From contig JALTZY010000306.1 in assembly GCA_027045905.1 (NCBI GenBank), positions 1 to 36,526 on the forward strand: 36,526 bases of DNA, read 5' to 3'. The position numbers were made by a program, and so were the translations under genes. Every line of letters begins with the position of its first letter. Within the stretch, counting starts at the first letter, position 1. The notes beneath the pieces were generated by a model that was not told where the DNA came from, did not search any database, and worked only from the letters and a program-made list of their open reading frames with translations. The stretch comes from Paracoccaceae bacterium. Its GTDB lineage: Bacteria > Pseudomonadota > Alphaproteobacteria > Rhodobacterales > Rhodobacteraceae. This document shows positions 7,333-33,816 of the stretch, piece by piece.

Positions 7333-7785
7333 GTGGCTGAGAAAGAAATTTCCATCGGCATGCTGGCGCGGCGCACCGGGCTGGCTGTATCCGCCATCCG
7401 GTATTATGAAACGCTCGGGCTGGTGCGCCCCGGGCGCAATGCCGGCGGGCAAAGGCGTTTTCGGCGCTCTGACATCCGGCGGCTGAGCTTTGTCGCCATT
7501 GCCCAGCGGCTGGGGTTCCCGTTGGCGCGCATTGGAGAGCTTCTGGCCGGCCTGCCCGATGAGCGCACGCCGACCCGGCGCGACTGGACGCGCATGTCGC
7601 AAATGTTTCGCACGGACCTGGACGCGCGCATTGCCGAGCTTGAGCGCCTGCGCGACCAGCTTGACGGGTGCATCGGTTGCGGCTGTCTGTCGCTGAAACG
7701 CTGCGCGCTTTACAACCCTGGCGACCGGGCACGCGCCAAGGGGCCAGGGCCGCGCTATCTGCTGGGGGACCGCGCCGAGGGATAA
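7333..7785 (+). CDS. soxR: Redox-sensitive transcriptional activator SoxR (MerR family, [2Fe-2S])
   Basis: MerR helix-turn-helix (SIGMLARRTGLAVSAIRYYETLGLVRPGRNAGGQRRFRRSDI) and SoxR cluster motif CIGCGCLSLKRC; probable GTG start at 7333 downstream of the SoxR box. Confidence 0.92.
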   Translation: MAEKEISIGMLARRTGLAVSAIRYYETLGLVRPGRNAGGQRRFRRSDIRRLSFVAIAQRLGFPLARIGELLAGLPDERTPTRRDWTRMSQMFRTDLDARIAELERLRDQLDGCIGCGCLSLKRCALYNPGDRARAKGPGPRYLLGDRAEG

Positions 7786-7810
7786 AAAAGACCCGGCTCG
7801 AGGCCGGGTC
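7784..7810 (-). terminator. Rho-independent terminator for the minus-strand response regulator gene
   Basis: Stem GACCCGGC/GCCGGGTC (7790-7797 / 7803-7810), 5-nt loop; followed on the minus strand by a T6 run (7784-7789). Confidence 0.75.
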
Positions 7811-7938
7811 AGTCCAACAGGGAGGTAGTGCCATGACCCCGGCACCAGGGGAACTGATGAAACCGGAAACAATCCCGGTCATTATCCATCATAGTTTCGA
7901 ATTGTGCCGAAAATATGACGATATGCAAATATATGGGA

Positions 7939-19148: not shown

Positions 19149-19393
19149 CGCGCGGGCCTCAGGATCAGGCGGGTGTCGCCGGGGGCTTCGGCGACCAGTT
19201 CCCCATGCCAGCCGCGCTCGGCAAGCTCCGGGTAGAGATGCACCGGATCGCGGTCCATATGGGCGATGATCGGCCCCGGTGTATTCTCCACATGCCAGAG
19301 AATCGCCACCATCGGCTCGGGCGGGGGCAGGCCGCGGGTGTCCACATGCCAGACGCTTCCTTCGCGCCAGAACTTGCCGGGCAGGTCGCTCAT
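19145..19393 (-). CDS. DUF2249-like small protein
   Basis: [82 protein letters not shown]; 'D.RGLPPPEPM..IL' and 'HMDRDPVHLYPELAERGW' pattern. Confidence 0.75.
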   Translation of the reverse strand: MSDLPGKFWREGSVWHVDTRGLPPPEPMVAILWHVENTPGPIIAHMDRDPVHLYPELAERGWHGELVAEAPGDTRLILRPAR

Positions 19394-20328
19394 GCCAGCG
19401 CCCGCGCCTTGCGCGCCGCCAGCGCGGCAATGGCGAGGCGGCGGTAATGGGGCTGGATGGTGGTGGTGCGCTGGGGCGAGGCGGCCTTTTGCACCGCCTT
19501 TTCCAGCGCGGTGAAATAGGCGTCATCCGGCGAAAACGGCACATCGAACTCCACCATTTTCGGGCAGGAATTGGTGCCGGTTAGCGCAATGTCATAGCCA
19601 CGCTCGGTACGCGCCAGCGCCACCCCGGCCAGCGGAAAGTCGATCGACTTGCGAACACGCAGCTTGGCATAGACCGAGGGCCCGGCGGGCGCAGGCAGGT
19701 GAATGGCCACAAGCAATTCGCCCGGCGCGAGCGTGAGGAAGGCAGCGCCGTCCTCGACGTAAAACGCCGCCAGCGGTACATGGCGCCTGCCCTCCGGCCC
19801 GGCGATCTCGAGCGTCGCCCCATGGACCATGAGCGCGGGCGCAAGATCCCCGGAAAAGGCCGCGCGGCAGCGATTGCCCCGTGGCGCCACATGGCAGACA
19901 GTTCCTTGATATTTCAGGCAGAAATCATTGCTCTGCCGCCACCAATGGCTCTGGTTGTAGTAAAGGCAGCGGGTGTCGAGGCAGAGATTGCCGCCAATCG
20001 TCGCCACCGCCCGATGCCCCGGCGCGGCGACGGAGGCGGCGGCCTCGGTGACGCTGGCATAGGCGCGTGCGAGCGGATCGTGCGCAAGGCTTGCCAGCGT
20101 CACCGCCGCGCCGATGCGCAGGCCCGCGCCCTCGGCCGCGATCCCCTGCATCTCGCTGATCGCGCCGATATCCACCAGCACATCCGGCACCGCCAGCCCC
20201 CGGCGCAGCTGCACCAGCTTGTCGGTCCCGCCGGCAAGGACCTGCGCGCGCTCCCGGGCCAGCGCGGCCACGGCCTCGGCCACGGTCGCGGGCCGGATCA
20301 GGGTGAAATCGGGTAGAAGCTCGCTCAT
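19390..20328 (-). CDS. hcrB: 4-hydroxybenzoyl-CoA reductase, FAD (beta) subunit with [4Fe-4S] loop
   Basis: FAD-binding molybdenum hydroxylase subunit with insertion [34 protein letters not shown] (Cys spacing 16/8/9), diagnostic of 4-HBCR beta. Confidence 0.92.
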
Positions 20329-22637
20329 GACGCACCTCCCGCGCGCTTCTGCGCGCGCCGCCACTTGATCAGCGCCTCCAGCAGGCGGTCGGGCGTGACC
20401 GGGAGGAAATTCACGTCAAGCCCCAGCGCGTCGGCCACCGCATTGACCAGCGCCGGCGGGAAGCCCGACAGCGCGCCCTCGCCCGCCTCCTTGGCGCCGA
20501 AGGGGCCGAGCGGGTCGATGCTCTCGACGATATGCACCTCCACCGGCGGGCTCTCGGCGATGGTGGGAAAGCGGTAGTCGAGCATGTTGGCATGGGCATG
20601 CAGGCCGTCGCGCCAGGCGGTCTCCTCGCTCATCGCCTGGGCCATGCCCATCCAGACCGAGCCTTCTATCTGGCCCTCGACGGCGAGCGGATTGATCGCA
20701 TAGCCCACGTCCAGCGCGCTCCAGACCTGCTCCACGGTGATCTGGCCGGTGGCCTCGTCCACGCTCACCTCGACCACCTGCGCGCCATAGGAAAAGCCCA
20801 TGGTCGAGCCCACCGCGCCGCCGCGATGCTTGCCGCCCTGGGCCTTTTCGGGGGTGCGGAAGGTGCCCTTTTCGGTGAGCGTGCCCTCCCTGGCCAGCGC
20901 CGCATAGACCACCTCCTGCCAGGGCAGTTCGGACTGCGCCGCGCCGGGGATGAAGAAGCTCTCGCCCTCGCAGACCACATCGACCGGGTCCGCCTCGAGC
21001 TTCTCGGCGGCGGCGAGGATCAGCTTTTCGCGCAGGGCGCGCGCCGCCTCGATCGCCGCATTGCCGACCATGAAGGTGACGCGCGAGGAATAGGAGCCGT
21101 TATCCTTGGGCGTGACCTCGCTGTCATTGGCCACCACGCGCACGCGGGCCATGTCGATGCCCAGCACCTCGGCGGCGGCCAGCGCAACGATGGTCGAAGA
21201 GCCCTGGCCGATATCGGAAGCGCCGGTGAGCACCGTCACCGCCCCATCGAACTCCAGCCGCATCTGCACCACCGCATGCGGCTCGCCGGTCCAGTGCACC
21301 GGCTTGGCGGCGCCCGAGACATAGTGACTGCAGGCCATGCCGAGCCCCCTGCCGCGGGGCAGCTTGCCGCGCCGCTCAGTCCAGCCGGAAGCGGTCTCGA
21401 CCCGATCCAGCGCCTCGGGCAGGCCGTAGGAATTGACCATCAGCCCGTTGGCGGTGAAGGTCGGCGCTTCGAGCAGATTGGCCCGGCGCAGATCGAAAGG
21501 ATCGAGGCCGAGCTCGCGGGCCATGCGGTCGAGCAGGCATTCGAAGGCGTGGCGCATGTCCACCGTGCCATGGCCGCGCATGGCCCCGCAGGGGGGTGTG
21601 TTGGTATAGACGCGGTAGCCGTCATATTTCACGTTTTCAATGGCATAGAGGCCGTGGATCAGCGCGCCGGCATAGAGGATCGTGACCAGCCCGTAGCCCG
21701 CATAGGCGCCCCCGGCCATCACCGCTTCGGCCTCGACGGCGGTGAGGGTGCCGTCGCGCTTCATGCCGATTTTGAGCCGCACATCGGTCTGCGGGCGACC
21801 GCGATGGGTGAGGAAGGTCTCTTCGCGGCTGAGCCGCAGCAGCACCTTGCCCCCGGCCTTGCGCGCCAGCAGGGCGGCGATGATCTCGAAGTTCAGCGTC
21901 TCGGTGCGGTGGCCGAACCCGCCGCCGACAAAGGGCTTGACCACGCGGATGCGGGAAGTGTCCATCTTCAGGCAGCGGGCCACGGCGAGGTGAACGTAAA
22001 AGGGAACCTGGGTGCAGCTGTGCAGCGTCAGGCGGGCGCGCTCGGGGTCGTATTCGGCCAGCGTGGCATTGGGCTCCATCATCGCGTGGTGGACCTCGGC
22101 GCAGGAGAAGGTCTCGTCGCGGATCAGGTCGGCCTCGGCAAAGCCCGCCTCGACGGAGCCGAATTCATGATGCACCTCGCGCTCGATATTGCCGGGCTTG
22201 TCGTCATGCAGAAGCGCGGCGTCGGGCGCGCGGGCCTCGGCGGCGGTGGCATGGGCCGGGAGCGGGTCGATCTCGAGCGCGATCAGCGCGAGGGCGGCCT
22301 CGGCGGTGCCGGCGTCCACGGCGGCCACGGCGGCGACGGGCTCGCCACGGTAGCGGACCTTGTCGCGGGCGAGGGGAAATTCGTTCTGCGCAATGGGGAT
22401 CACGCCATAGGGCACGTCGCAATCGGCGCCGGTGACCACGGCGAGGACGCCCGGCAGGGCTTCGGCGCGGGAAGTATCGAGCCGGACGATGCGCCCATGC
22501 GCCACGGGGCTGCGCAGGATGCGGGCGGTCAGCGTGTCGCGGTCGGCGAGGTCGGCGGTGTAGCGGGCGCGGCCGGTGACCTTTTCGATCCCGTCAACCA
22601 GCGGGGCGGGGCGGCCGATGGTGGAATGGTCCTTCAT
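20325..22637 (-). CDS. hcrA: 4-hydroxybenzoyl-CoA reductase, molybdopterin (alpha) subunit
   Basis: Xanthine-dehydrogenase-type large subunit: [24 protein letters not shown]..., [32 protein letters not shown]; flanked by hcrC and hcrB with 4-nt overlaps. Confidence 0.9.
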
Positions 22638-23101
22638 GCCATCGCCTCCGCTGCGGCCCGGACGGAGCGGATGATCTTCACATAGCCGGTGCAGCGGCAG
22701 AGATTGCCGCCCAGGGCTTCGCGTATCTCTGCTTCGCTCGGGTCGGGATTGGCGCGCAGAAGGGCCTCGGCGGCCATGATCATCCCCGGCGTGCAGTAGC
22801 CGCACTGGGTACCGAGATGCTCGTGAAAGGCGCGCTGGAGGGCCGAGAGCCTGCCGCCGGGCGCCTGGCCCTCGATGGTCTCGACCGCGCGCCCGTCCGC
22901 CGCTGCGGCAAGAGTGATGCAGGAGAGCCGGGCCACCCCGTCGATCAGCACCGTGCAGGCGCCGCATTCGCCACCGTCGCAGCCCATCTTGGTGCCGGTC
23001 AGGGCGAGCCGCTCGCGCAAGTAATCGACCAGCAGAAGGTTGTCGGGCACGAGGTCCTCGACCTCGCGGCCATTGACCTCAAGCTTGATGATCCGGCTCA
23101 T
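22634..23101 (-). CDS. hcrC: 4-hydroxybenzoyl-CoA reductase, 2x[2Fe-2S] (gamma) subunit
   Basis: [15 protein letters not shown]...SCITLA and CGYCTPGM...[11 protein letters not shown] motifs. Confidence 0.92.
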
Positions 23102-23150
23102 CGGCGCTACTCCCTGTTCTGCGCGGTTTCTTGACGAAGAAAGCAATAAA

Positions 23151-23168
23151 CCGGTACCATTATACTGG
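23151..23168. promoter_or_regulatory. Candidate operator CCGGTACCATTATACTGG between hcrC and the GNAT gene; contains a minus-strand TATAAT
   Basis: Imperfect inverted repeat CCGGTA-N6-TACTGG; shares GGTACNNNNATAC with the had/korA intergenic region. Confidence 0.45.
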
Positions 23169-23194
23169 AAAATGGGAAAGGGTATAGACTCTTC

Positions 23195-23674
23195 ATGGGC
23201 CAGCCACCGCAAGATACCCGGGACGACACACCGGAAATCCGCCGGGCCACGGAGGATGACCTCGCCGCCGTGGTACGGCTCGATGCGCGGGTGACCGGCC
23301 AGGCCAAGCCTGACTACTGGGCCGACATCTTCGAGCGCTTCGGCACACGACGCCAGGACAAGCGGTTCTTTCTGCTGGCCGATAGCGGCGGGAAGCTGGC
23401 AGGGCTCATCGCCGGCGAGGTGCGCGGCTGGGAATTCGGCTCGGAGCCCTGCGGCTGGGTCTTTGCCGTCTCGGTGGACCCGGAGCGGCGCGAGCAGCAT
23501 ATCGGCGAGGCCCTGTTTCGCGAGATCTGCGCCCGATTCCGCGCTGCCGGGGTCAGCAAGGTGCGCAACATGGTGCGCCGCGACGACCGGCTGCTGATGT
23601 CTTTCTTCCGCTCCGAAGGCATGGTCGCCGGCCCCTATATCCAGCTGGAGCTCGACCTGGACGACGCCCCGTAA
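23195..23674 (+). CDS. GNAT-family N-acetyltransferase (possibly BadL-like)
   Basis: PEIRRATEDDLAAVVRLDARVTG... VFAVSVDPERREQHIGEALFREICARF; next to Rrf2 gene in an aromatic-catabolism locus. Confidence 0.8.
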   Translation: MGQPPQDTRDDTPEIRRATEDDLAAVVRLDARVTGQAKPDYWADIFERFGTRRQDKRFFLLADSGGKLAGLIAGEVRGWEFGSEPCGWVFAVSVDPERREQHIGEALFREICARFRAAGVSKVRNMVRRDDRLLMSFFRSEGMVAGPYIQLELDLDDAP

Positions 23675-23694
23675 CCGCCTGCAAGGAGCACGCT

Positions 23695-24132
23695 TTGCAA
23701 AAATCGAGCCGCCTCGCCATCCTCGCCCTGATCGAGCTGGCCGCCAACCCGGACCGGTCGATCTCGACCGCCGAAATCGGCGAGAAATACCGCGTCTCGG
23801 CGCATCACCTCGCGAAGGTTCTGCTGACATTGGGGCGTGCGGGCCTGGTGCAGTCGATCCGGGGCGTGGGCGGGGGCTATTCCTTTACCGGCAATGCGCG
23901 GCGGGTGACGCTCCATGACATCATCAGCCTGTTCGAGGAGACCGAGGTGAAATGCCGCCTCGCCGATCCGTCAGAGGCCAACCCCGAGGAATGGGCGCTC
24001 TTTGACGTGGCCAAGGAAATCAACGACATCGCCAATGCCACCTATGGCTCGATCACGCTGGCCACCATGCTGATGCAGATCGAGAAGCGCAAGAGGGCGC
24101 AGGAGCGCCGCGCCGAGGTGGCCGCGAAGTAA
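23695..24132 (+). CDS. Rrf2-family transcriptional regulator (possibly BadM-like)
   Basis: TTG start after AAGGAG; QKSSRLAILALIELAANPDRSISTAEIGEKYRVSAHHLAKVLLTLGRAGLVQSIRGVGGGYSFTGNARRVTLHDII. Confidence 0.87.
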   Translation: MQKSSRLAILALIELAANPDRSISTAEIGEKYRVSAHHLAKVLLTLGRAGLVQSIRGVGGGYSFTGNARRVTLHDIISLFEETEVKCRLADPSEANPEEWALFDVAKEINDIANATYGSITLATMLMQIEKRKRAQERRAEVAAK

Positions 24133-24173
24133 GGCCACGGGTCTTTCGCCGGGCATGCGCCCGGGAGCCGGGG

Positions 24174-24195
24174 CGATTTTTCTCTCGAAAAATCG
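24174..24195. terminator. Hairpin CGATTTTTC-tctc-GAAAAATCG downstream of the Rrf2 gene
   Basis: 9-bp perfect stem, 4-nt loop; preceded by GC hairpin CCGGGC-atgc-GCCCGG. Confidence 0.45.
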
Positions 24196-24291
24196 GAGCC
24201 TCCGGCGGGAGTATTTATGGAAAGATGAAAGGGCGGCTTGATTTCGGTATTTTGGTATTGTAATGCTTGTTTTAAGGAAAGAGGCCGCGAC

Positions 24292-24792
24292 ATGATGTTT
24301 TCACGCCGTACCGCGCAGCTGTTGCACGAGGATCACCGGGCCACGATCGAGGTGATCGAGGGGCTGGACGATCTGCTCGCCCGCGCCCGCAGGAGGGCGC
24401 CGGATGTGGCCGATCCACAGGTGCAGAAGGTGCTGAAGGCCGCTTCCGGCGCCATTCAGGACGAGATCGACGGCCACTTTGCCTTTGAGGAAAACGAGCT
24501 TTTCACCCGGCTCGAGGAGCTGGGCGACGTGGCGATCGGCGAGCATTTGCGCGGCGAGCACGCGGCGCTCCTGCCGCTGGGCCGGCAGGTGGCGGGGATG
24601 GCCCGCGCAGCACTGGGCGAGGGGTTCGGCCCGGAGAGCTGGGGACAGTTTCGCGCTCTGGCCGGGGAGCTGATCGAGCGGATGCTGATGCATATCCAGA
24701 AGGAAGAAATGGCGCTGCTGCCGGCGCTCGACGATCTGCTGGACGATGACGAGGACATGGCGCTTTCCACTCTCTATGCCGGCACCCACTGA
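24292..24792 (+). CDS. Hemerythrin (HHE) domain protein
   Basis: LLHEDHRATIEVIEGLDD..., DEIDGHFAFEENELFTRL, EHLRGEHAALLPL, LMHIQKEEMALLPALDDLL: His/Glu ligands of hemerythrin-like domains. Confidence 0.85.
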   Translation: MMFSRRTAQLLHEDHRATIEVIEGLDDLLARARRRAPDVADPQVQKVLKAASGAIQDEIDGHFAFEENELFTRLEELGDVAIGEHLRGEHAALLPLGRQVAGMARAALGEGFGPESWGQFRALAGELIERMLMHIQKEEMALLPALDDLLDDDEDMALSTLYAGTH

Positions 24793-24799
24793 GGAAATC

Positions 24800-25774
24800 A
24801 TGCACAATATCAGACCCTTGAACGCTAACGACCTGGAAGCGGTCATCGCCATGGACCAAGCGGCGACGGGCATATCCCGGCGTGGCTATTTCGAAAAGCG
24901 CCTGGCGGCGGCAACCAGCCGGCCGAAGGATTTCGTCTATTCGGGGCTCGAGGAAGGGGGTACGCTGGCGGGCTTTGCCTTTGCCAAGCTGGTCAGTGGC
25001 GAATTCGGCAAGCCCGGCGCCAGCGCGGCGCTGGATGCGATCGGGGTGGATCCGGCTCATGGACGAAAGGGCTACGGGCAGGCGCTGCTGGGTGACGTGG
25101 CGCGGGTGCTTGCGGCCAAGGGTGTAACCACGCTTTCGAGCCAGGTGGACTGGGGCAGCCCGATGGCTGGCTTTCTGGCCAAGGCCGGCTTTGCCCTCGC
25201 GCCGCGGCTGGTCCTGACCCGCACCACCGAGCCGATGGTCCAGCAACTGGGCAGCGCGCGCGAGGATCGGTGGGATGCGGAGCCGGATTACTCTTCGCCC
25301 GAGGGCGATGCGGCGGATGCGCTTTCCCATGACAAGGTGCTGGTGCGGTCGATGCGGGAGAGCGACCTTGGCAAGATCATCGCCATTGACCGCGAAAATA
25401 CCGGGGCCAACCGCAGCGATTATCTCAGCCGCAAGATGCACGACACGCTGCATGAAAGCGGAGTGCGGGTTTCGCTCGTGGCCGAGATGGAGGGCTACCC
25501 GGTCGGCTTCATCATGGCGCGGGTGGATTTCGGCGAGTTCGGCCATACCGGCACCGAGGCCGAGATGGACACGCTCGGGGTCGATCCGGGCTATCGGGGC
25601 CAGGGCGTGGGCCGGGCGCTGATGGCGCAGCTGATCGCCAATCTCGCCACGCTGCGCGTCGAGACCATTCGCACCGAGATCAACTGGGACGATACCAGCC
25701 TCATCACCTATCTGGGGGCGATGGGCTTTGCCCCGGCGCAGCGCCTGGCGCTGGTGCGCAAGCTGAAAGGGTGA
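24800..25774 (+). CDS. Tandem GNAT-domain N-acetyltransferase
   Basis: Two GNAT modules: IRPLNANDLEAVIAMDQAATG...GVDPAHGRKGYGQALL and VRSMRESDLGKIIAIDRENTG...GVDPGYRGQGVGRALM. Confidence 0.85.
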   Translation: MHNIRPLNANDLEAVIAMDQAATGISRRGYFEKRLAAATSRPKDFVYSGLEEGGTLAGFAFAKLVSGEFGKPGASAALDAIGVDPAHGRKGYGQALLGDVARVLAAKGVTTLSSQVDWGSPMAGFLAKAGFALAPRLVLTRTTEPMVQQLGSAREDRWDAEPDYSSPEGDAADALSHDKVLVRSMRESDLGKIIAIDRENTGANRSDYLSRKMHDTLHESGVRVSLVAEMEGYPVGFIMARVDFGEFGHTGTEAEMDTLGVDPGYRGQGVGRALMAQLIANLATLRVETIRTEINWDDTSLITYLGAMGFAPAQRLALVRKLKG

Positions 25775-25820: not shown

Positions 25821-26063
25821 CTATTGCATCGCGTCGTATTTGGCCTGGAGTTCTTCCCTGCTCTCTTCCCAGTCCGGGTTCGGCACGATGCACTCCTCGG
25901 GGCAGACAAGCTGGCATTGCGGCTCGTCCTCGGCGCCGACGCATTCGGTGCATTTCATCGGATCGATCACATAGTAGGGATCGCCCGGGCTGATCGCCTC
26001 GTTCGGGCAGACCGGCTCGCAGGCGTCGCAGGCAGTGCAGGGGTCAACGATCATCAGGGCCAT
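25821..26063 (-). CDS. fdx: 2[4Fe-4S] ferredoxin (Allochromatium type), likely electron donor of benzoyl-CoA reductase
   Basis: CTACDACEPVC and CTECVGAEDEPQCQLVCPEEC (CxxCx8CxxxC) motifs; directly downstream of bcrD. Confidence 0.92.
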   Translation of the reverse strand: MALMIVDPCTACDACEPVCPNEAISPGDPYYVIDPMKCTECVGAEDEPQCQLVCPEECIVPNPDWEESREELQAKYDAMQ

Positions 26064-26074
26064 TTTTCTCTCCT

Positions 26075-26920
26075 TCAGGATGCTTCCAGGACTTGTCCGG
26101 TAGCGGCCAGCTTGTCAAACCGGAACGCCCCCCAGAGCGCCGCGCCGATGGCGCCGGCATAGATGCTGTCGGGGTGGTTGACCACTTCGGCATCGACTCC
26201 CCTGAGTGCTGCGAGCTTCTCGCGCAGGGCCTCGCAGAGCCCCTCGTCGGTGGCGAGCCCCCCGGTCATCATCACCACGTCGTTCCTGACGCCGATCGCC
26301 TTGAGCAGGCGGGCGAGCCGGCCGGCCATGGACAGGTGGATACCCTTGAGGATATTGGGCGCGGTGATGCCGCGGCTGACCATGTTGATCACGTCGGTCT
26401 CGGCCAGAACGGCGCAGATCGAGCTGACTTCCTCCGGGTCGTCGGCCTGCATCGAAAGCGCGCCGATCTCGTCCTGGGCGATGCCCAGATAGCGGGCGAT
26501 GTTTTCGAGGAACTGGCCGGAGCCCGAGGCGCATTGGCTGGTCATCTTGTAATTGATGACCTTGCCCTTCTCGTCCATGATCATGGCGCGACCATGCAGG
26601 GCGCCGCAATCGAGAATGGCGCCGGCGCGGGGCTCGAGATAACGCGCGCCGCGGGCGTGGCTGGTCATGGAGTAGAAATGGCCGGTATGCCACTCGAGGC
26701 TCTCGCCCTCGCCGGTGGTGGCGATATAGTCGATGTCGCTCTCCTTGAGCCCCGCTTCCTCCAGCACCTGGTCGAAGGCCTCGCGCGAAAGCTGCATCGG
26801 GTCGCGGCTGCGGATGCGCAGGGTGGCCCTGGAGAGCCATTCTTCCTTGCCGTCCCCGACCCGGAAGATCGCCGCCTTGACCGCGCCGGTCCCCAGGTCA
26901 ATGCCTGCTGCCAGTGTCAT
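26075..26920 (-). CDS. bcrD: Benzoyl-CoA reductase subunit D (ATPase/activator type)
   Basis: [21 protein letters not shown]..., [21 protein letters not shown]; BadF/BadG/BcrA/BcrD family; 4-nt overlap with bcrA. Confidence 0.92.
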
Positions 26921-28251
26921 GCTTCCACTCCTTCCATGCGCCCCTCGGCGGCGCGGCGGGCGAATTCCGCCGCACCCAGCGAGCCGGTATAGATCGAATC
27001 CGGGTCGATATTGATGGTGACGTCACCATAGTTTTCGCGGATGAGCTTCTTGAGTTCGCGCACGGCGGCCTCGTTCTTGGCCACGCCGCCGGTAAAGGTC
27101 ATCTGATCCTGCACGCCGCCGGAGCGCGACAGGATCGAGATGGCGCGCAGGATGATGGCGCGGTGCAGGCCGGCGAGGATGTCCTCGCGCTTCTCGCCCA
27201 GCGCCAGCCGGTCGCGCAACTCGGCGCCGGCAAAGACGGTGCAGGTCGAGTTGATCCGCGCAGGCCGCGACGACTTCATGGCCAGCGGCCCGAGCTCGTG
27301 CAGGCCCATGTTCATCTCGTCGGCGATATAGCCCAGATAGCGGCCGCAGCCGGCGGCGCAGCGGTCGTTCATCTGGAAATTCTCGACGATGCCGTTTTCA
27401 TCCACCTGAATGCCCTTGGTATCCTGCCCGCCGATATCGAGCACGGTGCGGGTCTTGGGATACATCATGTGCGCCCCCAGCCCGTGGCAGAGGATCTCGG
27501 AGCGGATATGCTCTTTGGAAAAGGGCAGGGTGACGCGCCCGTAGCCGGTGCCGACCAGATATGTATCTTCAAGCTCCACGCCAAGCGCGTTCTTCGCCTT
27601 TTGCGCCAGATCGTCGGTGACCCCCTCGCCGGAGGACGTGACCCGCTCCAGCGCGCGCCGGAACTTCTCGTCCAGCGAGCCCGAGGGCGGACGGTTCTCC
27701 ACCGCGATGATCGACTTGTCGTAGAGGTTGATCAGCGCGTCATTGGCGACCCCCATCTCGCGCGCCACCTCTTCGGCAAGGTTGATGTAGCGCGAGCCGG
27801 CAATGTCGCGGAAGAAATCCGACTTGCGGGTGGAATTCGGCCCGTAAAGCGCCGGGGCCTCGGCGCGCAGGCGGCTGAAGATTTCGGCCAGCGCCGCCTT
27901 GAGCCCGTCGCCAGTCTTTGCAAAGCGCTCGCCGCGCACCAGACGGGTGCAGGTCTCTTCGAGGTCGGCAAGCTGCTCGAGGTATTGCTCAAGGCGGAAA
28001 TTCTGCTCCAGCGCGTCGAGAAAGGCCTCGGCCTCCTCGCTCAGCGCCTGATCGGAGCCGAACTGGCGGCGAAACAGGGTGAAGCGCGCATCCACCAGCG
28101 CCTCCTGCTGGGCCACCCGGCAGGCGGTGTCGTAATTGGAGCGCGAATTGGTGATGCCGCGCCCCAGCACCTGGCCGTCTTCGTCGAGCAGCACCGCCTT
28201 GGTGGTGGTGGAGCCCAGATCAATGCCGACAAAGGTCTTCATCGCGCTCAT
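26917..28251 (-). CDS. bcrA: Benzoyl-CoA reductase subunit A (ATPase/activator type)
   Basis: [22 protein letters not shown]..., [37 protein letters not shown]. Confidence 0.94.
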
Positions 28252-29555
28252 GCCGCCGCTCCTTTCCCAGAACGTTTCTGTTCGACCATCTGGAAGTAGC
28301 TCTCGAGCCGGTTCTTCACGTTCGCGGCCGAGAAATAGCGCGGATCCACCAGATCGGTCTCGATGAAGGCCGCGGGCTTGCCGGTGCGCTTTTCCACCTC
28401 GCGCATGATCAAAAGCTGGCCTGCCGAGAACGAATTGCACGACTTGATCGAATTGATCAGCAGCCCGTCGGCCTCGTATTCGTTGATGTAGTTCACCAGC
28501 ATGTCGATGCGCATGGGCAAGGAGCGGTTCGTATAGACGTTCAGGCAGTATTCGGCGAGGCTCTCGAGCGGGCGCTCCGGGTCATGGCGGAAGCCGAAAT
28601 CATAGGTGCCGCCGACCTTGGTGTAGGACGAGGCGACCACGGTCGCGCCTTCCTCGTAGAACATCTTCCAGAACTGACGGAAGGAGGTGTAATTGGGCGG
28701 GCCTTCAACCACGAGGCGGTATTTCTCGCCCTCCATGGTGCCGTCGGGCGTGATCGGGCCGAGCCCCTTGGCGATGCGCTCTTCCACCTCGCGGCGCAGG
28801 AACTTGTAGTATTCGATCGCGTCATCCGTGCCGCGAAAGGCGCCGAAGATCGGGCCGATATAGTAGATGCCGCCGAAATAGGCGTCGATCGGGCTGGGCT
28901 TGTGCTTGGCGCTTTGCAGCACGGCCACCAGATCGTCCTCGGCCCGGGCGGATTTCTTCAGATATTCGCGCAGGCGGTCGATGTCGAAATTCACGCCCGA
29001 GACTTCCTCCAGCGTCGGGATCACGTCTTCCTTCAGCTGCCTGACCATGTACTGGATCATGTTGGGCGTGATCCTGCCGTCGGCCATGTAGGGCGTCTGC
29101 AAGAAGATGGTCGGGCATTTGTACTGCTCGCGCAGCAGTTCGAACCACTTGAGAAAGGTGAAGCAGCCGGTATAGCTCAGGAGCAGCACGTCGGGCCTGG
29201 GAAGCTCGCGGGCATTGGGGCCGATATTGCCCTTCATCATCATGCCGATGTCCGATTTCACATAGGTGCAGACATCCTCGGAATGGCCGGCGCGCTCGGC
29301 CTCCATGATGTACTGGCCCGATTTCTTGCGCAGGCCGGACTGGATCGCGTTGACCTCGGGCAGGTTGTTGACGAGATCGAAGCACATGATCAGTTCGTTG
29401 AGGTTGCCCGGCACGAAGGTCGAGGCGACCTTCTCCCCGGTCATCGGCGCATCGCACAGGCGGTCATAATGGCGCGCCATCATCTCTTTTTGCAGGATCA
29501 TCGAGGCGTCCTTCTGGACGTCTTCGGGCCGGGCTTTCACGATGGCAGGTTTCAT
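28248..29555 (-). CDS. bcrB: Benzoyl-CoA reductase subunit B
   Basis: 2-hydroxyacyl-CoA dehydratase D-type family; [31 protein letters not shown]..., [58 protein letters not shown]. Confidence 0.93.
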
Positions 29556-30727
29556 GCCGCGCTCCACAGTTTGATAGAATCGACGAAGGTGCCCGCCTGC
29601 TCGCGGATGGGCTGCATCTGGCCGCTGTTCTCGGCGTATTTGAAGGCGATGTAGGGGATGTTTACCTCGTCCAGAACATGCTGGAGCATGGGACGGTCGA
29701 GCAGCGCCGGGTCGCAGAAGGAGGTGGAGGCGAAGATCACCCCCTCGGCCCCGGTGCGCTCCATGGCCCGGATCAGGAAGCGGCCCTTCTCCGCCTCGTC
29801 CGGCTCGTACTTGGCGGCGGTGGACATGGAGTGATGCAGGAAGGCGTGGCTCAGCGCCTCAAGCGGGTTGCCGTCGGTGGGGACTTCTTCGGTCAGCCAG
29901 CGGGCCACCAGCATGAAATCGTCATCCACCACATAGCAGCCGGCAAGCTCCAGCGACTTGATCAGGTTGAGCGGGGGCTGTTCGCAGAACATGCCGGTGA
30001 GGATCACCTTGGCGTTGTCCTTCATCGGGCGTCTGGTGGCGCGCGCCGCGTCGATATAGTCGCGCAGCATCGTGTTGTGCTCCTCCACCGGCAGCACCAG
30101 GCCTGCGCGTGCCACCAGATAGGCTTCGGAGGCGGGGGCCCGCCAGGGCAGCTCGGCGCGCAGGGCGTAAAGCGCGCGCAGGAGCGCGCGGTTTTCGTTA
30201 TAGACGGCGATCGAGGCGTTGATGTCGTCATCCGTGACCTTGCGCCCCGAGATCCGCTCGAGCCCCTCGAGAAGCTCGCGCATCTCGCCGATATAGAAGC
30301 GCCCGCCGATCTCGTCGTCGAAGGTCTGGGGGGTGTCGAAATACTTGACATAAACATCCGGGAAAAGCGTCATCCACATGCCGGAAAGGTTGCGGATCAC
30401 ATCGCAGATCGAGGGAAACAGCATCCCCGAGACGAAATCGAGCCGCCCCGACAGGCCAAGCTCGATGGTCGAGCGCGGGATGCGACAGATGTAGCTCTGA
30501 TAATAGGCGTCGCCATGGATCACCTCGAGCCGGTCGCCCCCGCCCATGACGCCCAGAGGCAGCATCCCGGCGGCATGGATCAGCTCGCGCGGCACATAGA
30601 TCGGCAAATGCCCGATCACATGGCGGCCCGGCTCGGCCTCCTTCCACGCGCGCGCGGCGGTGAAATCGAGATCGTCGTAAAGCGCCTCGGCGCGGGCGAC
30701 GATTTCTTCTGTGGTTTTCCCGGTCAT
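29552..30727 (-). CDS. bcrC: Benzoyl-CoA reductase subunit C
   Basis: GHLPIYVPRELIHAAGMLPLGVMGGGDRLEVIHGDAYYQSYICRIPRSTIELGLSGRLDFVSGMLFPSICDVIRNLSGMW; 4-nt overlaps with dch and bcrB. Confidence 0.93.
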   Translation of the reverse strand: MTGKTTEEIVARAEALYDDLDFTAARAWKEAEPGRHVIGHLPIYVPRELIHAAGMLPLGVMGGGDRLEVIHGDAYYQSYICRIPRSTIELGLSGRLDFVSGMLFPSICDVIRNLSGMWMTLFPDVYVKYFDTPQTFDDEIGGRFYIGEMRELLEGLERISGRKVTDDDINASIAVYNENRALLRALYALRAELPWRAPASEAYLVARAGLVLPVEEHNTMLRDYIDAARATRRPMKDNAKVILTGMFCEQPPLNLIKSLELAGCYVVDDDFMLVARWLTEEVPTDGNPLEALSHAFLHHSMSTAAKYEPDEAEKGRFLIRAMERTGAEGVIFASTSFCDPALLDRPMLQHVLDEVNIPYIAFKYAENSGQMQPIREQAGTFVDSIKLWSAA

Positions 30728-31491
30728 CTGTTCTCCCACCTGGCTGGGCGCTTGGCGAGGAAGGCGTTCAGCCCCTCCACCGCGTCGCGGGTTTGCATGA
30801 GCTCGGTCAGATAGATCCGCTCCACCTCGTCGAGGCGCGGCAGGACGCGGGCGAGGAAAGGCTCGCGCGCCGCCCGCACCGCGAGGCGCAGAGACGAGGT
30901 GCTTTTCACCGCCAGATGTTTCTCCACATAGGCGCGCGCGGCATCCTCCGGCGTATCGGTCAGGTGGTCGATGAGGCCCGCCTCCAGCGCCTCGCCCGCC
31001 CCCATGGAGCGGCCCGAGAGCAGCAGATCCTGCGCCAGAGCCTGGCCCATGCGCTCGGGCATGAGCACGCTTGCGGCAGGCGCAAAGACGCCGAGCTTCA
31101 TCTCCGGCTGGCCCAGTTGCGCATCCGGCGCGGCAAAGATCATGTGCCCGGCCATGGCAAGCTCGAGCCCGCCGCCCAGGCACTGGCCGCGCACCGCCAC
31201 CAGCACCGGCAGCGGAAAGGCCAGCATCATGCGGATGAGCCTGTGCAGGCTCGTGAGCATTCCCTCGCATTGCTCGGGCAGATGCTCCTCGACCGAGGCA
31301 CCGAAGGAAAAGTGCGGCCCCTCGGCGCCCAGCAGCACCGCGGCGAGAGCGCTGTCATGGGCGGCCGCATCGAACGCATGGGTGAGCGCGGCGATCATCC
31401 CGGCATCGACGATATTCGCCTTGGGCCGATCGAGCGTCAGGCGCAAAAGCTTGCCGTCAAGCTCGGTATTCGCTCTCAGGCACTCGCTCAC
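30724..31491 (-). CDS. dch: Cyclohexa-1,5-diene-1-carboxyl-CoA hydratase
   Basis: GTG start (GTGAGCGAGTGC); crotonase fold with LTLDRPKANIVDAGMIAALTHAF, RGQCLGGGLELAMAGHMIFA, LGQPEMKLGVFAPAAS; gene order with oah/bcrC. Confidence 0.9.
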   Translation of the reverse strand: MSECLRANTELDGKLLRLTLDRPKANIVDAGMIAALTHAFDAAAHDSALAAVLLGAEGPHFSFGASVEEHLPEQCEGMLTSLHRLIRMMLAFPLPVLVAVRGQCLGGGLELAMAGHMIFAAPDAQLGQPEMKLGVFAPAASVLMPERMGQALAQDLLLSGRSMGAGEALEAGLIDHLTDTPEDAARAYVEKHLAVKSTSSLRLAVRAAREPFLARVLPRLDEVERIYLTELMQTRDAVEGLNAFLAKRPARWENR

Positions 31492-32600
31492 TTGCGCACC
31501 CCCGGCATGAAGCTGTCGATGAATTCGGGCGTCCACTTCGCTCCCGCCGCAAGCTCCTGGCGCAGGGCCACGAAATCGACCTCGCGGCCCACTTCACGGT
31601 TGCCTTCATTGAAGGCGCGGAAGCCCATATTGGCCTCGGTCATCATGTTGTTTGCCAGCCAGGCGCGGGAATTTTCCTTGTTCATGTTCCAGGCATTGAG
31701 CTTGGGCTTGCGCAGCTCCTCGAGCGTCTTGGTGGTGCAGTCCGGGAAGGTGAGCAGCAGCTTGCCGGCAAGCTCTTCCACCTTCGCATCCAGCGCGCTC
31801 AGGTCCACCTCGCCGCGCGCAAGCAGCGCCTTGCCCTCGGCGGCGGCTTCGCCGGTCCTGAATTCGCCATGCAGGATGCGCCCGTAGGCATCGGTCTTCA
31901 TCTCGGTCTCGACCAGCGGATTGGCGACATATTCGCCATCCACCTTCAGCCCCGGCACGATATCGGTCAGGATGCCCAGCCGCTGCGCCTGGTGCGCCGA
32001 AAAGGGCTCGCAGAGCACGCCCGAGACAAAGGCCTGCTCGCAGCCGATCATCACCGGCAGGAAGTCGGTGGAGCCGCCGATCGGGGCCGAGCCGTGCTTG
32101 GGACCGGCCTGGCCGAAGCGGGAAAGGTCCTGGGCCACGGAGAAATCGCAGGCCATGCCGATCTCCTGCCCGCCGCCGATACGCATGCCGTTCACCCGAC
32201 AGATCACCGGCTTGTCGCAGGTGAGGATACTGCTTACCATGTCGTTGAAAAGCCGCATGTACTGGCGATATTCCTGCGGGCGACCGGCGTAATATTCGGC
32301 GTATTCCTTCGTGTTGCCGCCGGTGCAAAAGGCCTTGTCGCCCACAGCGGTGAAAATAACCGCATTCACGTCGCGCATGTTGGACGCGGCGCGAAAGGCG
32401 AGGATCACGGCCTTGACCATATCGGTGGTGTAGGAATTGTACTGGGCCGGATTGTCGAGGATGACCCAGGCATTGTAGAGCCCTTCCACCTCGCTGCCGT
32501 CGGGCAGGGTCGCAGGCCGGCGCTCGAAACGCACCTTGTCGGAAATCCGGGTCAGCGTTTCGGGGCTGATCAGGTCATGCTCTTCAAACTGAAAACTCAT
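31488..32600 (-). CDS. oah: 6-oxocyclohex-1-ene-1-carbonyl-CoA hydrolase (ring-opening)
   Basis: NAWVILDNPAQYNSYTTDMVKAVILAFRAASNMRDVNAVIFTAVGDKAFCTGGNTKEYAEYYAGRPQEYRQYMRLFNDMV..., BamA/Oah family. Confidence 0.94.
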   Translation of the reverse strand: MSFQFEEHDLISPETLTRISDKVRFERRPATLPDGSEVEGLYNAWVILDNPAQYNSYTTDMVKAVILAFRAASNMRDVNAVIFTAVGDKAFCTGGNTKEYAEYYAGRPQEYRQYMRLFNDMVSSILTCDKPVICRVNGMRIGGGQEIGMACDFSVAQDLSRFGQAGPKHGSAPIGGSTDFLPVMIGCEQAFVSGVLCEPFSAHQAQRLGILTDIVPGLKVDGEYVANPLVETEMKTDAYGRILHGEFRTGEAAAEGKALLARGEVDLSALDAKVEELAGKLLLTFPDCTTKTLEELRKPKLNAWNMNKENSRAWLANNMMTEANMGFRAFNEGNREVGREVDFVALRQELAAGAKWTPEFIDSFMPGVRK

Positions 32601-32611
32601 CTCTCTCTCCT

Positions 32612-33670
32612 TCAGGGCACCAGAATCTGGCGCTTGATCGTCTCGCCCGCATGGACGGCGCGAAAGACTTCGTTGATCTCGTCGAGCGGCCTGTGCTCGA
32701 TGAAGGGCGCGAGCTTGACCTTGCCCTCTTCGACCAGAGCCAGCGCGCCGGGGTAAAGCTCGGGCGGGCAGCCCCAATTGCCCAGGAGGCGGGCGTGAAA
32801 GGCCATGAGGTTCGAAAGCCTGACCTCCACCTTGTCCATGGTGAAGCCGACCACGCACATGGTACCGCCATGGGTGAGCAGCCCGAAGGCGGCCTTCTGC
32901 CCGGCCGCCGTGCCGGAACATTCCATGACGATCCATTCGCGCGTGCGCAGACCGTTTTCGCGGGCGAAATCGAGAATCGCGCCCTTGAGGCTGCGCGGGT
33001 CATGTTCGCGGGCATCGAGCGTCAGCGCGGCACCGTATCGGGCCGCGGCGGCGAGCTTTTCAGCCACCACGTCGATGGCCACCACCGTCGCCCCCAGCGC
33101 GTGCGCCACCTGCACCGCATAGCCGCCGACCCCGCCCACGCCGTTGACGATCACCAGATCGTCCTCACCCACACCCGCCTGCACAGCGGCCTGCCAGGGC
33201 GTGGTGAGCGCATCTGCCACCACCGAGACATCGGCGAGGCCCAGCCCCTGGGCGGCGAGCTTTTCGGTATCCACCGGGCAGAGCCCGCGCGCCGGCACGG
33301 TGATGTGGGAGGCAAAGCCGCCCTCTATGTCGTTGCCCGGCATCTTCTGCGCCTTGCAGATCGTGCCCTTGCCACGCTTGCAGGCATCGCATTCGCCGCA
33401 GGGCATGACGGCGGGGATGATGACCGGCTTGCCGATCCACTCCTCGCCCCCCTCCCCGGCGGCCGTGACCACGCCGGAAATCTCGTGGCCCAGGGTGAGC
33501 GGCAGGGCACGATTGGTGCGCACGCCATCGTAGTAGAAGCCCAGATCGGTGTGGCAGACGCCACAGCCCGCCACCTCCACCACCACCTCGCCGGGGCCCG
33601 GGGGGGCGGGCTCGAATTCGACCATCTGCAGGGGCTCTCCCTGCGAAACCATCTGCCAGCGCCGCGCCAT
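32612..33670 (-). CDS. had: 6-hydroxycyclohex-1-ene-1-carbonyl-CoA dehydrogenase (zinc ADH family)
   Basis: [34 protein letters not shown]..., [52 protein letters not shown]; first gene of the bcr operon. Confidence 0.92.
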
Positions 33671-33758
33671 GATTCTCCCCCGTTTGGGCCCGTTTTCCCG
33701 GATTTTCCCGCGGTCAGGACCTTGTTGACATGCTGCGCGCTCTTAATTACCGTAAATT

Positions 33759-33771
33759 GGTACTCGAATAC
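33759..33771. promoter_or_regulatory. Candidate operator GGTACTCGAATAC in the had/korA divergent intergenic region
   Basis: Shares 9 of 13 positions with GGTACCATTATAC at 23153-23165; lies close to a TTGACA at 33724-33729. Confidence 0.4.
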
Positions 33772-33816
33772 ATGATTTGGGTCAACCGTCAAATTCACCA
33801 CGCGGGAGGCAGCCGG

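Follow-up and report, generated by a model that had tools for sequence, protein, structure and literature searches.

The window, a 36,526-nucleotide stretch of Paracoccaceae DNA, carries two GNAT acetyltransferase genes, an Rrf2 regulator gene and a hemerythrin gene next to a class I benzoyl-CoA reductase cluster. We consider it probable (about 0.6) that this region provides control and support functions within an anaerobic benzoate/4-hydroxybenzoate regulon, in which a switch of the BadL-BadM type is combined with a co-made accessory of hemerythrin and tandem GNAT. Judged from sequence comparison, the three GNAT domains are two old, separately conserved parts that share one predicted DNA control site, rather than a recent expansion. 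The part formed by the single-domain GNAT (GNAT1) and Rrf2 is known in kind, and the hemerythrin-tandem-GNAT unit is conserved, reductase-linked and apparently undescribed. Benzoyl-CoA reductase, which is highly sensitive to oxygen, is a central enzyme in the anaerobic breakdown of aromatics, and BadL-BadM is, to our knowledge, the sole described acetylation-based switch for its expression.

Gene content of the region

Four co-directional genes on the forward strand make up the region: GNAT1, a single-domain acetyltransferase of putative BadL type (23195..23674; Pfam Acetyltransf_1, orthologues beside Rrf2), a putative BadM-type Rrf2 regulator (23695..24132; PF02082, 7e-25, with a TTG start and GGAG upstream), an HHE hemerythrin-like di-iron protein (24292..24792; PF01814, 5e-14) and a 324-aa tandem GNAT protein (24800..25774). 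The tandem protein has two Acetyltransf_1 stretches above the Pfam cut-offs and consists of half A (24800-25222), a linker and half B (25331-25771). The initial annotation had placed all four genes correctly, including the tandem GNAT end at 25774. Its start is most likely the ATG at 24800 (TGAGGAAATCATG), which lies behind TGAGGAAATC and 7 bp past the hemerythrin stop, and not 24746.

The surroundings comprise the class I benzoyl-CoA reductase cluster with its ferredoxin, a 2-oxoacid oxidoreductase of the KorAB type and 4-hydroxybenzoyl-CoA reductase. On the reverse strand are a YfhL-type ferredoxin gene (25821..26063; NF033683 above cut-off), bcrD, bcrA, bcrB, bcrC and dch (26075..31536; TIGR02261, TIGR02259, TIGR02260 and TIGR02263 above cut-off), and oah and had (31488..33670; TIGR03200 and TIGR03201 above cut-off). 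Within this run, dch belongs to the ECH family and is the presumed dienoyl-CoA hydratase gene by its position and its ECH_1 match, and had is the start of the bcr operon, divergent from korA. The genes for 4-hydroxybenzoyl-CoA reductase, hcrB, hcrA and hcrC (19390..23128), are also on the reverse strand (TIGR03194 above cut-off, TIGR03193 and TIGR03195 just below). The source genome is in 425 contigs, and its nearest named record is a Rhodobacteraceae MAG whose tandem protein is 92% identical.

GNAT1 and Rrf2 have the layout of badL-badM

GNAT1 scores 41.6 bits against PF00583 (cut-off 20.7), and its orthologues are 45-72% identical. In all 22 genomes with an intact GNAT1 gene, the Rrf2 gene follows directly 3' on the same strand. 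All 22 orthologues keep E80 (in WEFGS) and, in the pyrophosphate loop, R99; G104 is likewise conserved, and the clade also conserves K38, W42, R77, W79, W88, F90 and F137-F138-R139. The three acetyl-CoA loops reported earlier (RREQHIG, GRKGYGQ and YRGQGVG) were all found in the sequence; their divergence had been read as a sign that one domain may be degenerate or ligand-binding. For GNAT1 this reading was dropped, as the Arg of RREQHIG is the invariant R99 and neither of the other loops is as well conserved; with E80 also invariant, GNAT1 was rejected as the degenerate domain. The Rrf2 protein scored above the cut-off of TIGR00738. An Fe-S type regulator (IscR, NsrR or RirA) was considered and rejected: the corresponding models scored far below cut-off, and the alignment of orthologues contained no conserved Fe-S cysteines.

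The initial annotation had compared the region to R. palustris BadL and BadM, and this held up: as in badL-badM, a single-domain GNAT gene is paired with an Rrf2 gene inside a benzoate/benzoyl-CoA reductase locus; the closest known systems also include the BadL proteins of M. magneticum (amb3392) and G. metallireducens (gmet_2096) (PMC6191541). It had also named BadR as the target of the BadL product; this was wrong, as the acetamidobenzoates made by BadL bind BadM, the Rrf2 repressor of badDEFGAB, an operon that AadR activates (PMC6191541). By analogy, we regard GNAT1 and Rrf2 as a further pair of the BadL-BadM type, with orthology to BadL and BadM resting on layout and pathway linkage. Compared with the BadL-BadM loci, the window has two additional genes, for a tandem GNAT and a hemerythrin, that share the predicted operator. 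One genome of the same genus as the window (G069, locus L115) has BcrD and the ferredoxin, and neither GNAT1 nor a tandem GNAT was found in its 300-contig assembly, which reflects either real loss or an assembly gap.

The tandem GNAT is an old and separate lineage

That the two genes encode three paralogous GNAT domains, as first proposed, was borne out by BLASTP and a common EFG motif. Half A and half B are 32% identical (E 2e-23), and GNAT1 is 28% identical to half A (9e-11) and 27% to half B (1e-11). The shared N-terminal motif is also real, but its proposed spacing was one residue too long: the actual form is [IV]R-x(5)-DL-x2-[VI]-x2-[LMI]-D-x3-TG, with x5 rather than x6, and the second tandem half opens with VR instead of the proposed IR. 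In a maximum-likelihood tree, GNAT1 (98/92), half A (82/92) and half B (97/94) each formed a clade, with A and B as sisters (98/93). These are three orthologous clades across alphaproteobacterial families; therefore the duplications are older than the sampled families, and a lineage-specific triplication was rejected. Duplication thus stands, but the idea of a single expanded triple set does not: the GNAT1 clade goes with Rrf2, and halves A and B form an older pair of sister clades, separate from it, that goes with hemerythrin.

Full-length orthologues of the tandem protein are 37-70% identical. In five genomes, halves A and B are separate neighbouring genes, and some of the B genes open with the linker motif. 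Both halves keep the core (D, G and EFG), and both are missing the GNAT1-clade invariants W42, R77, W79, W88, F90 and R139. Because these BadL-clade pocket residues are missing, the substrate of the tandem GNAT probably differs from that of GNAT1, and an aminobenzoate is an unlikely substrate for either half. By analogy with GNAT enzymes in general, the Glu of EFG would have a catalytic role. Half A has Ala at this position in 5/21 orthologues (the window's half A keeps Glu), and half B has an invariant Asp ahead of G-[ED]-F-G. Half B is therefore probably the surer catalyst and, if any domain is degenerate, it is probably half A.

Structure prediction, suggested earlier as a check, worked in part. 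AlphaFold2 gave a pLDDT of 38.7 for the whole tandem protein from two sequences and 78.5 for half B with its own paralogues, so half B folded acceptably. By sequence and fold it was nearest to acetyltransferases of the YpeA, RimI and Ard1 type, but such a match to generic GNATs does not fix the substrate. Two GNAT domains per chain are also found in mycothiol synthase MshD (TIGR03448), one of whose domains is non-catalytic. The tandem GNAT differs from MshD in scoring 25.5 bits against the equivalog cut-off of 163.1, in its genomic context and in having separate halves in five genomes.

Gene order and the hemerythrin

The comparison covered about 20 genomes of alphaproteobacteria, from which we took the loci of bcr and of the tandem GNAT; a phylum-wide sample contributed one useful genome (G842). 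The hemerythrin gene adjoins the tandem GNAT gene in 15 of 22 tandem loci and is not adjacent in the other 7. In bcr-linked loci, the tandem GNAT gene and the bcr operon usually converge, the operon facing it with its ferredoxin end. The hcr genes separate the two modules in most Rhodobacteraceae, and the modules adjoin in the window and in its near relative L009. G842, from another family, has tandem GNAT-HHE-GNAT1-Rrf2 in one run on one strand; this order differs from that of the window and L009, and the link between the modules is therefore seen in two arrangements. A contig search with the tandem protein returned L009, a close relative, as the sole match, and a plasmid search found nothing.

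The His/Glu metal-ligand positions of the hemerythrin are invariant across 16 sequences, and the HHE ligand set is complete. The nearest solved relatives of the family are YtfE structures (PDB 5fnn and 7bha, E 6e-9). Unlike YtfE/RIC, the window's protein does not have the N-terminal part of YtfE and scores 19.4 bits against the RIC equivalog TIGR03652 (cut-off 204.7). By analogy with YtfE, its most likely role would be to protect or repair iron-sulphur enzymes against O2 or NO. In two relatives, the hemerythrin gene adjoins a gene for a membrane-like protein (L032:7773-9092, between hcrB and HHE, and L046:7670-9001) that is absent at this place in the window; NnrS was considered as its identity and rejected, as neither Pfam nor NCBIfam matched. 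G842 has a rubrerythrin/ferritin-like gene (L144:5216-5911) between korB and the Rrf2 gene.

A predicted operator shared with the reductase genes

A 20-bp dyad with the consensus TTnnGTAynnnrGTACnnAA was first spotted by eye in the window's promoters, and a symmetrised matrix was then trained on ten hcrC promoters only. The best predicted operator in the window (23150..23169, 16.7 bits) is in the divergent hcrC/GNAT1 promoter, which was among the training promoters and in which the dyad is conserved across Rhodobacteraceae. Two overlapping predicted operators precede the hemerythrin gene (24243..24270, starting at 24243 and 24251; 12.3 and 12.5 bits), where less than 0.1% of local shuffles reach 10 bits. 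Another, of 9.0 bits, lies between the divergent had and korA (33756..33775) and is conserved upstream of had elsewhere. The next unrelated site in the window scores only 3.1 bits, and shuffled windows yield 0.03 sites at ≥8 bits.

Over the 715 kb of loci, we found 60 matches at ≥10 bits, compared with 1-2 in shuffles; hcr and GNAT1 share a single promoter in these matches. Nearly all of these lie before HHE, GNAT1/hcrC, had/korA, bcrC or tandem GNAT. In G489 and G581, which do not have an adjacent HHE gene, the dyad is upstream of the tandem GNAT gene itself. It also precedes benzoate-CoA ligase genes in three relatives and bcrC in the bad-like G421, and it is absent from the HHE upstream regions of G383, G575, G620 and G842. 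In the window's own genome, the best match in 267 kb outside the window (15.2 bits) precedes a benzoate-CoA ligase gene on contig C64. With the dyad before hcrC/GNAT1, hemerythrin, had/korA and benzoate-CoA ligase, the hemerythrin-tandem-GNAT unit very probably belongs to the same regulon as hcr/GNAT1 and bcr. By analogy, this regulon is probably that of the BadM-type protein: we infer that Rrf2 binds the dyad from their linkage and from the repression of badDEFGAB by BadM (PMC6191541).

Three further sites are beside genes of the Rid family (RidA-like; L045:115, L116:10292 and L031:17928), the last of them between the Rid gene and a divergent benzoate-CoA ligase gene, and Rid proteins may be part of the regulon. 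Additional sites are at L041:2249 (11.5 bits), adjoining a gene for a fluoroacetyl-CoA-type thioesterase, and at L161:1390 (11.2 bits) in the window's own genome.

Co-occurrence with class I benzoyl-CoA reductase

Almost all carriers of the tandem GNAT also have class I benzoyl-CoA reductase, which supports the proposed link to the benzoate pathway. Among 298 genomes of the family, 8 had the tandem GNAT, 10 had BcrD, 8 had both and 288 had neither; the two with BcrD and no tandem GNAT are fragmented assemblies. Among 385 genomes of the class, the tandem GNAT and BcrD were each found in 13, with 11 having both, two exceptions in each direction and 370 having neither. Fisher's test gave 3e-14 (family) and 1e-17 (class), with genomes treated as independent though they are not. 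For the tandem GNAT without BcrD, one exception is explained by a contig break, as bcrABC is at a contig end (G607). The other (G620, locus L113) has korAB-HHE-tandem GNAT, and neither BcrB nor BcrD was found in this 95% complete genome; either the reductase was lost or another ring reductase is present. G421 and G575 have BcrD and no tandem GNAT.

Discussion

In the reading that we favour, GNAT1 would acetylate an aromatic amine, with an acetamidobenzoate as the ligand expected by analogy to BadL. Once acetylated, this amine would bind Rrf2, and the repressor would then leave the dyad before hcr/badLM, the bcr operon, benzoate-CoA ligase and the hemerythrin-tandem-GNAT unit. Release from this common site would cause the unit to be made together with the ring-reducing enzymes. 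The di-iron hemerythrin would guard or repair the iron-sulphur enzymes against O2 or NO, and the tandem GNAT would act as a two-domain acetyltransferase whose substrate differs from that used by GNAT1, with half B as the main catalytic half and half A partly degenerating.

Other readings differ in what the tandem GNAT does or what binds the dyad. The tandem GNAT could be a protein acetyltransferase, made with the pathway, that acetylates lysines or the N-terminus of benzoate-CoA ligase or of a subunit of benzoyl-CoA reductase and in this way acts as a brake. Benzoate-pathway acyl-CoA synthetases of R. palustris are lysine-acetylated (Crosby 2010, as cited in PMC6191541), half B is closest to acetyltransferases of the YpeA, RimI and Ard1 type, and the dyad precedes both the ligase gene and the hemerythrin-tandem-GNAT unit. 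However, similarity to YpeA and RimI is generic among GNATs and nothing ties the tandem protein to any target, which leaves such a brake possible but doubtful. It is considerably less likely that the tandem GNAT serves as another BadL, supplying BadM or a different regulator with a further ligand of the acetamidobenzoate type. It does belong to the same GNAT subfamily, with common N-terminal and EFG motifs, and to the same predicted regulon, but its halves form a separate clade with long branches and without the GNAT1-clade invariants, and in most genomes the unit has no adjoining Rrf2 gene.

The dyad itself could belong to another regulator, such as one of the CRP/FNR type, in which case promoters would not join the tandem GNAT to the BadL-BadM-type pair. 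Sites of FNR have the form TTGAT-N4-ATCAA, which the dyad does not resemble, and in most Rhodobacteraceae loci it is the badLM-type pair itself whose divergent promoter holds the dyad. Since the pairing of Rrf2 with the dyad is indirect, and AadR, a protein of this type, activates badDEFGAB in R. palustris (PMC6191541), we regard another regulator as unlikely rather than implausible. GNAT genes are common and could lie near a bcr cluster by chance, but given the co-occurrence with BcrD (Fisher 3e-14 and 1e-17), the conserved position beside the ferredoxin gene and the common operator, coincidence is extremely improbable.

A bolder extension of the favoured reading is that the di-iron protein senses O2 or NO and thereby gates an acetyltransferase of pseudo-heterodimeric build, which in turn would switch the machinery of ring reduction, or its CoA ligase, on or off; the two proteins would form a module dedicated to class I benzoyl-CoA reductase systems. 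We consider this a speculative proposal with low odds; if true, the hemerythrin-gated tandem GNAT would add a second level of control by acetylation below the BadL-BadM switch. The literature comes closest with BamK (Gmet_2077), an N-acetyltransferase that belongs to the bam cluster of G. metallireducens and is 21.8-fold up on benzoate (PMC1924859). Like the tandem GNAT gene, the BamK gene is a GNAT gene present in a benzoate locus in addition to that of BadL, but it is part of a class II (BamB) reductase cluster (PMC1924859), and the likeness drawn here is one of description. Our literature search, which excluded most subscription journals, found no papers on the hemerythrin-tandem-GNAT unit and none that join benzoyl-CoA reductase, GNAT and hemerythrin. 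With a hemerythrin and a double acetyltransferase in the predicted regulon, this is a small gene set open to deletion and assay, and the predicted operator allows a direct test of Rrf2 targets.

Other features of the window

The window has an Rfam match to SorX, a singlet oxygen resistance sRNA (7784-7853, reverse strand, 70 bits). A short interspersed repeat (24169-24237) comprises a hairpin, CGATTTTTC...GAAAAATCG, followed by GCCTCCGGCGGGAGTATTT...GAAAGATGAAAGGG. Rfam gave no match for this repeat; it has at least 39 further copies in the same genome (80-97% identical) and sits directly ahead of the hemerythrin operator.
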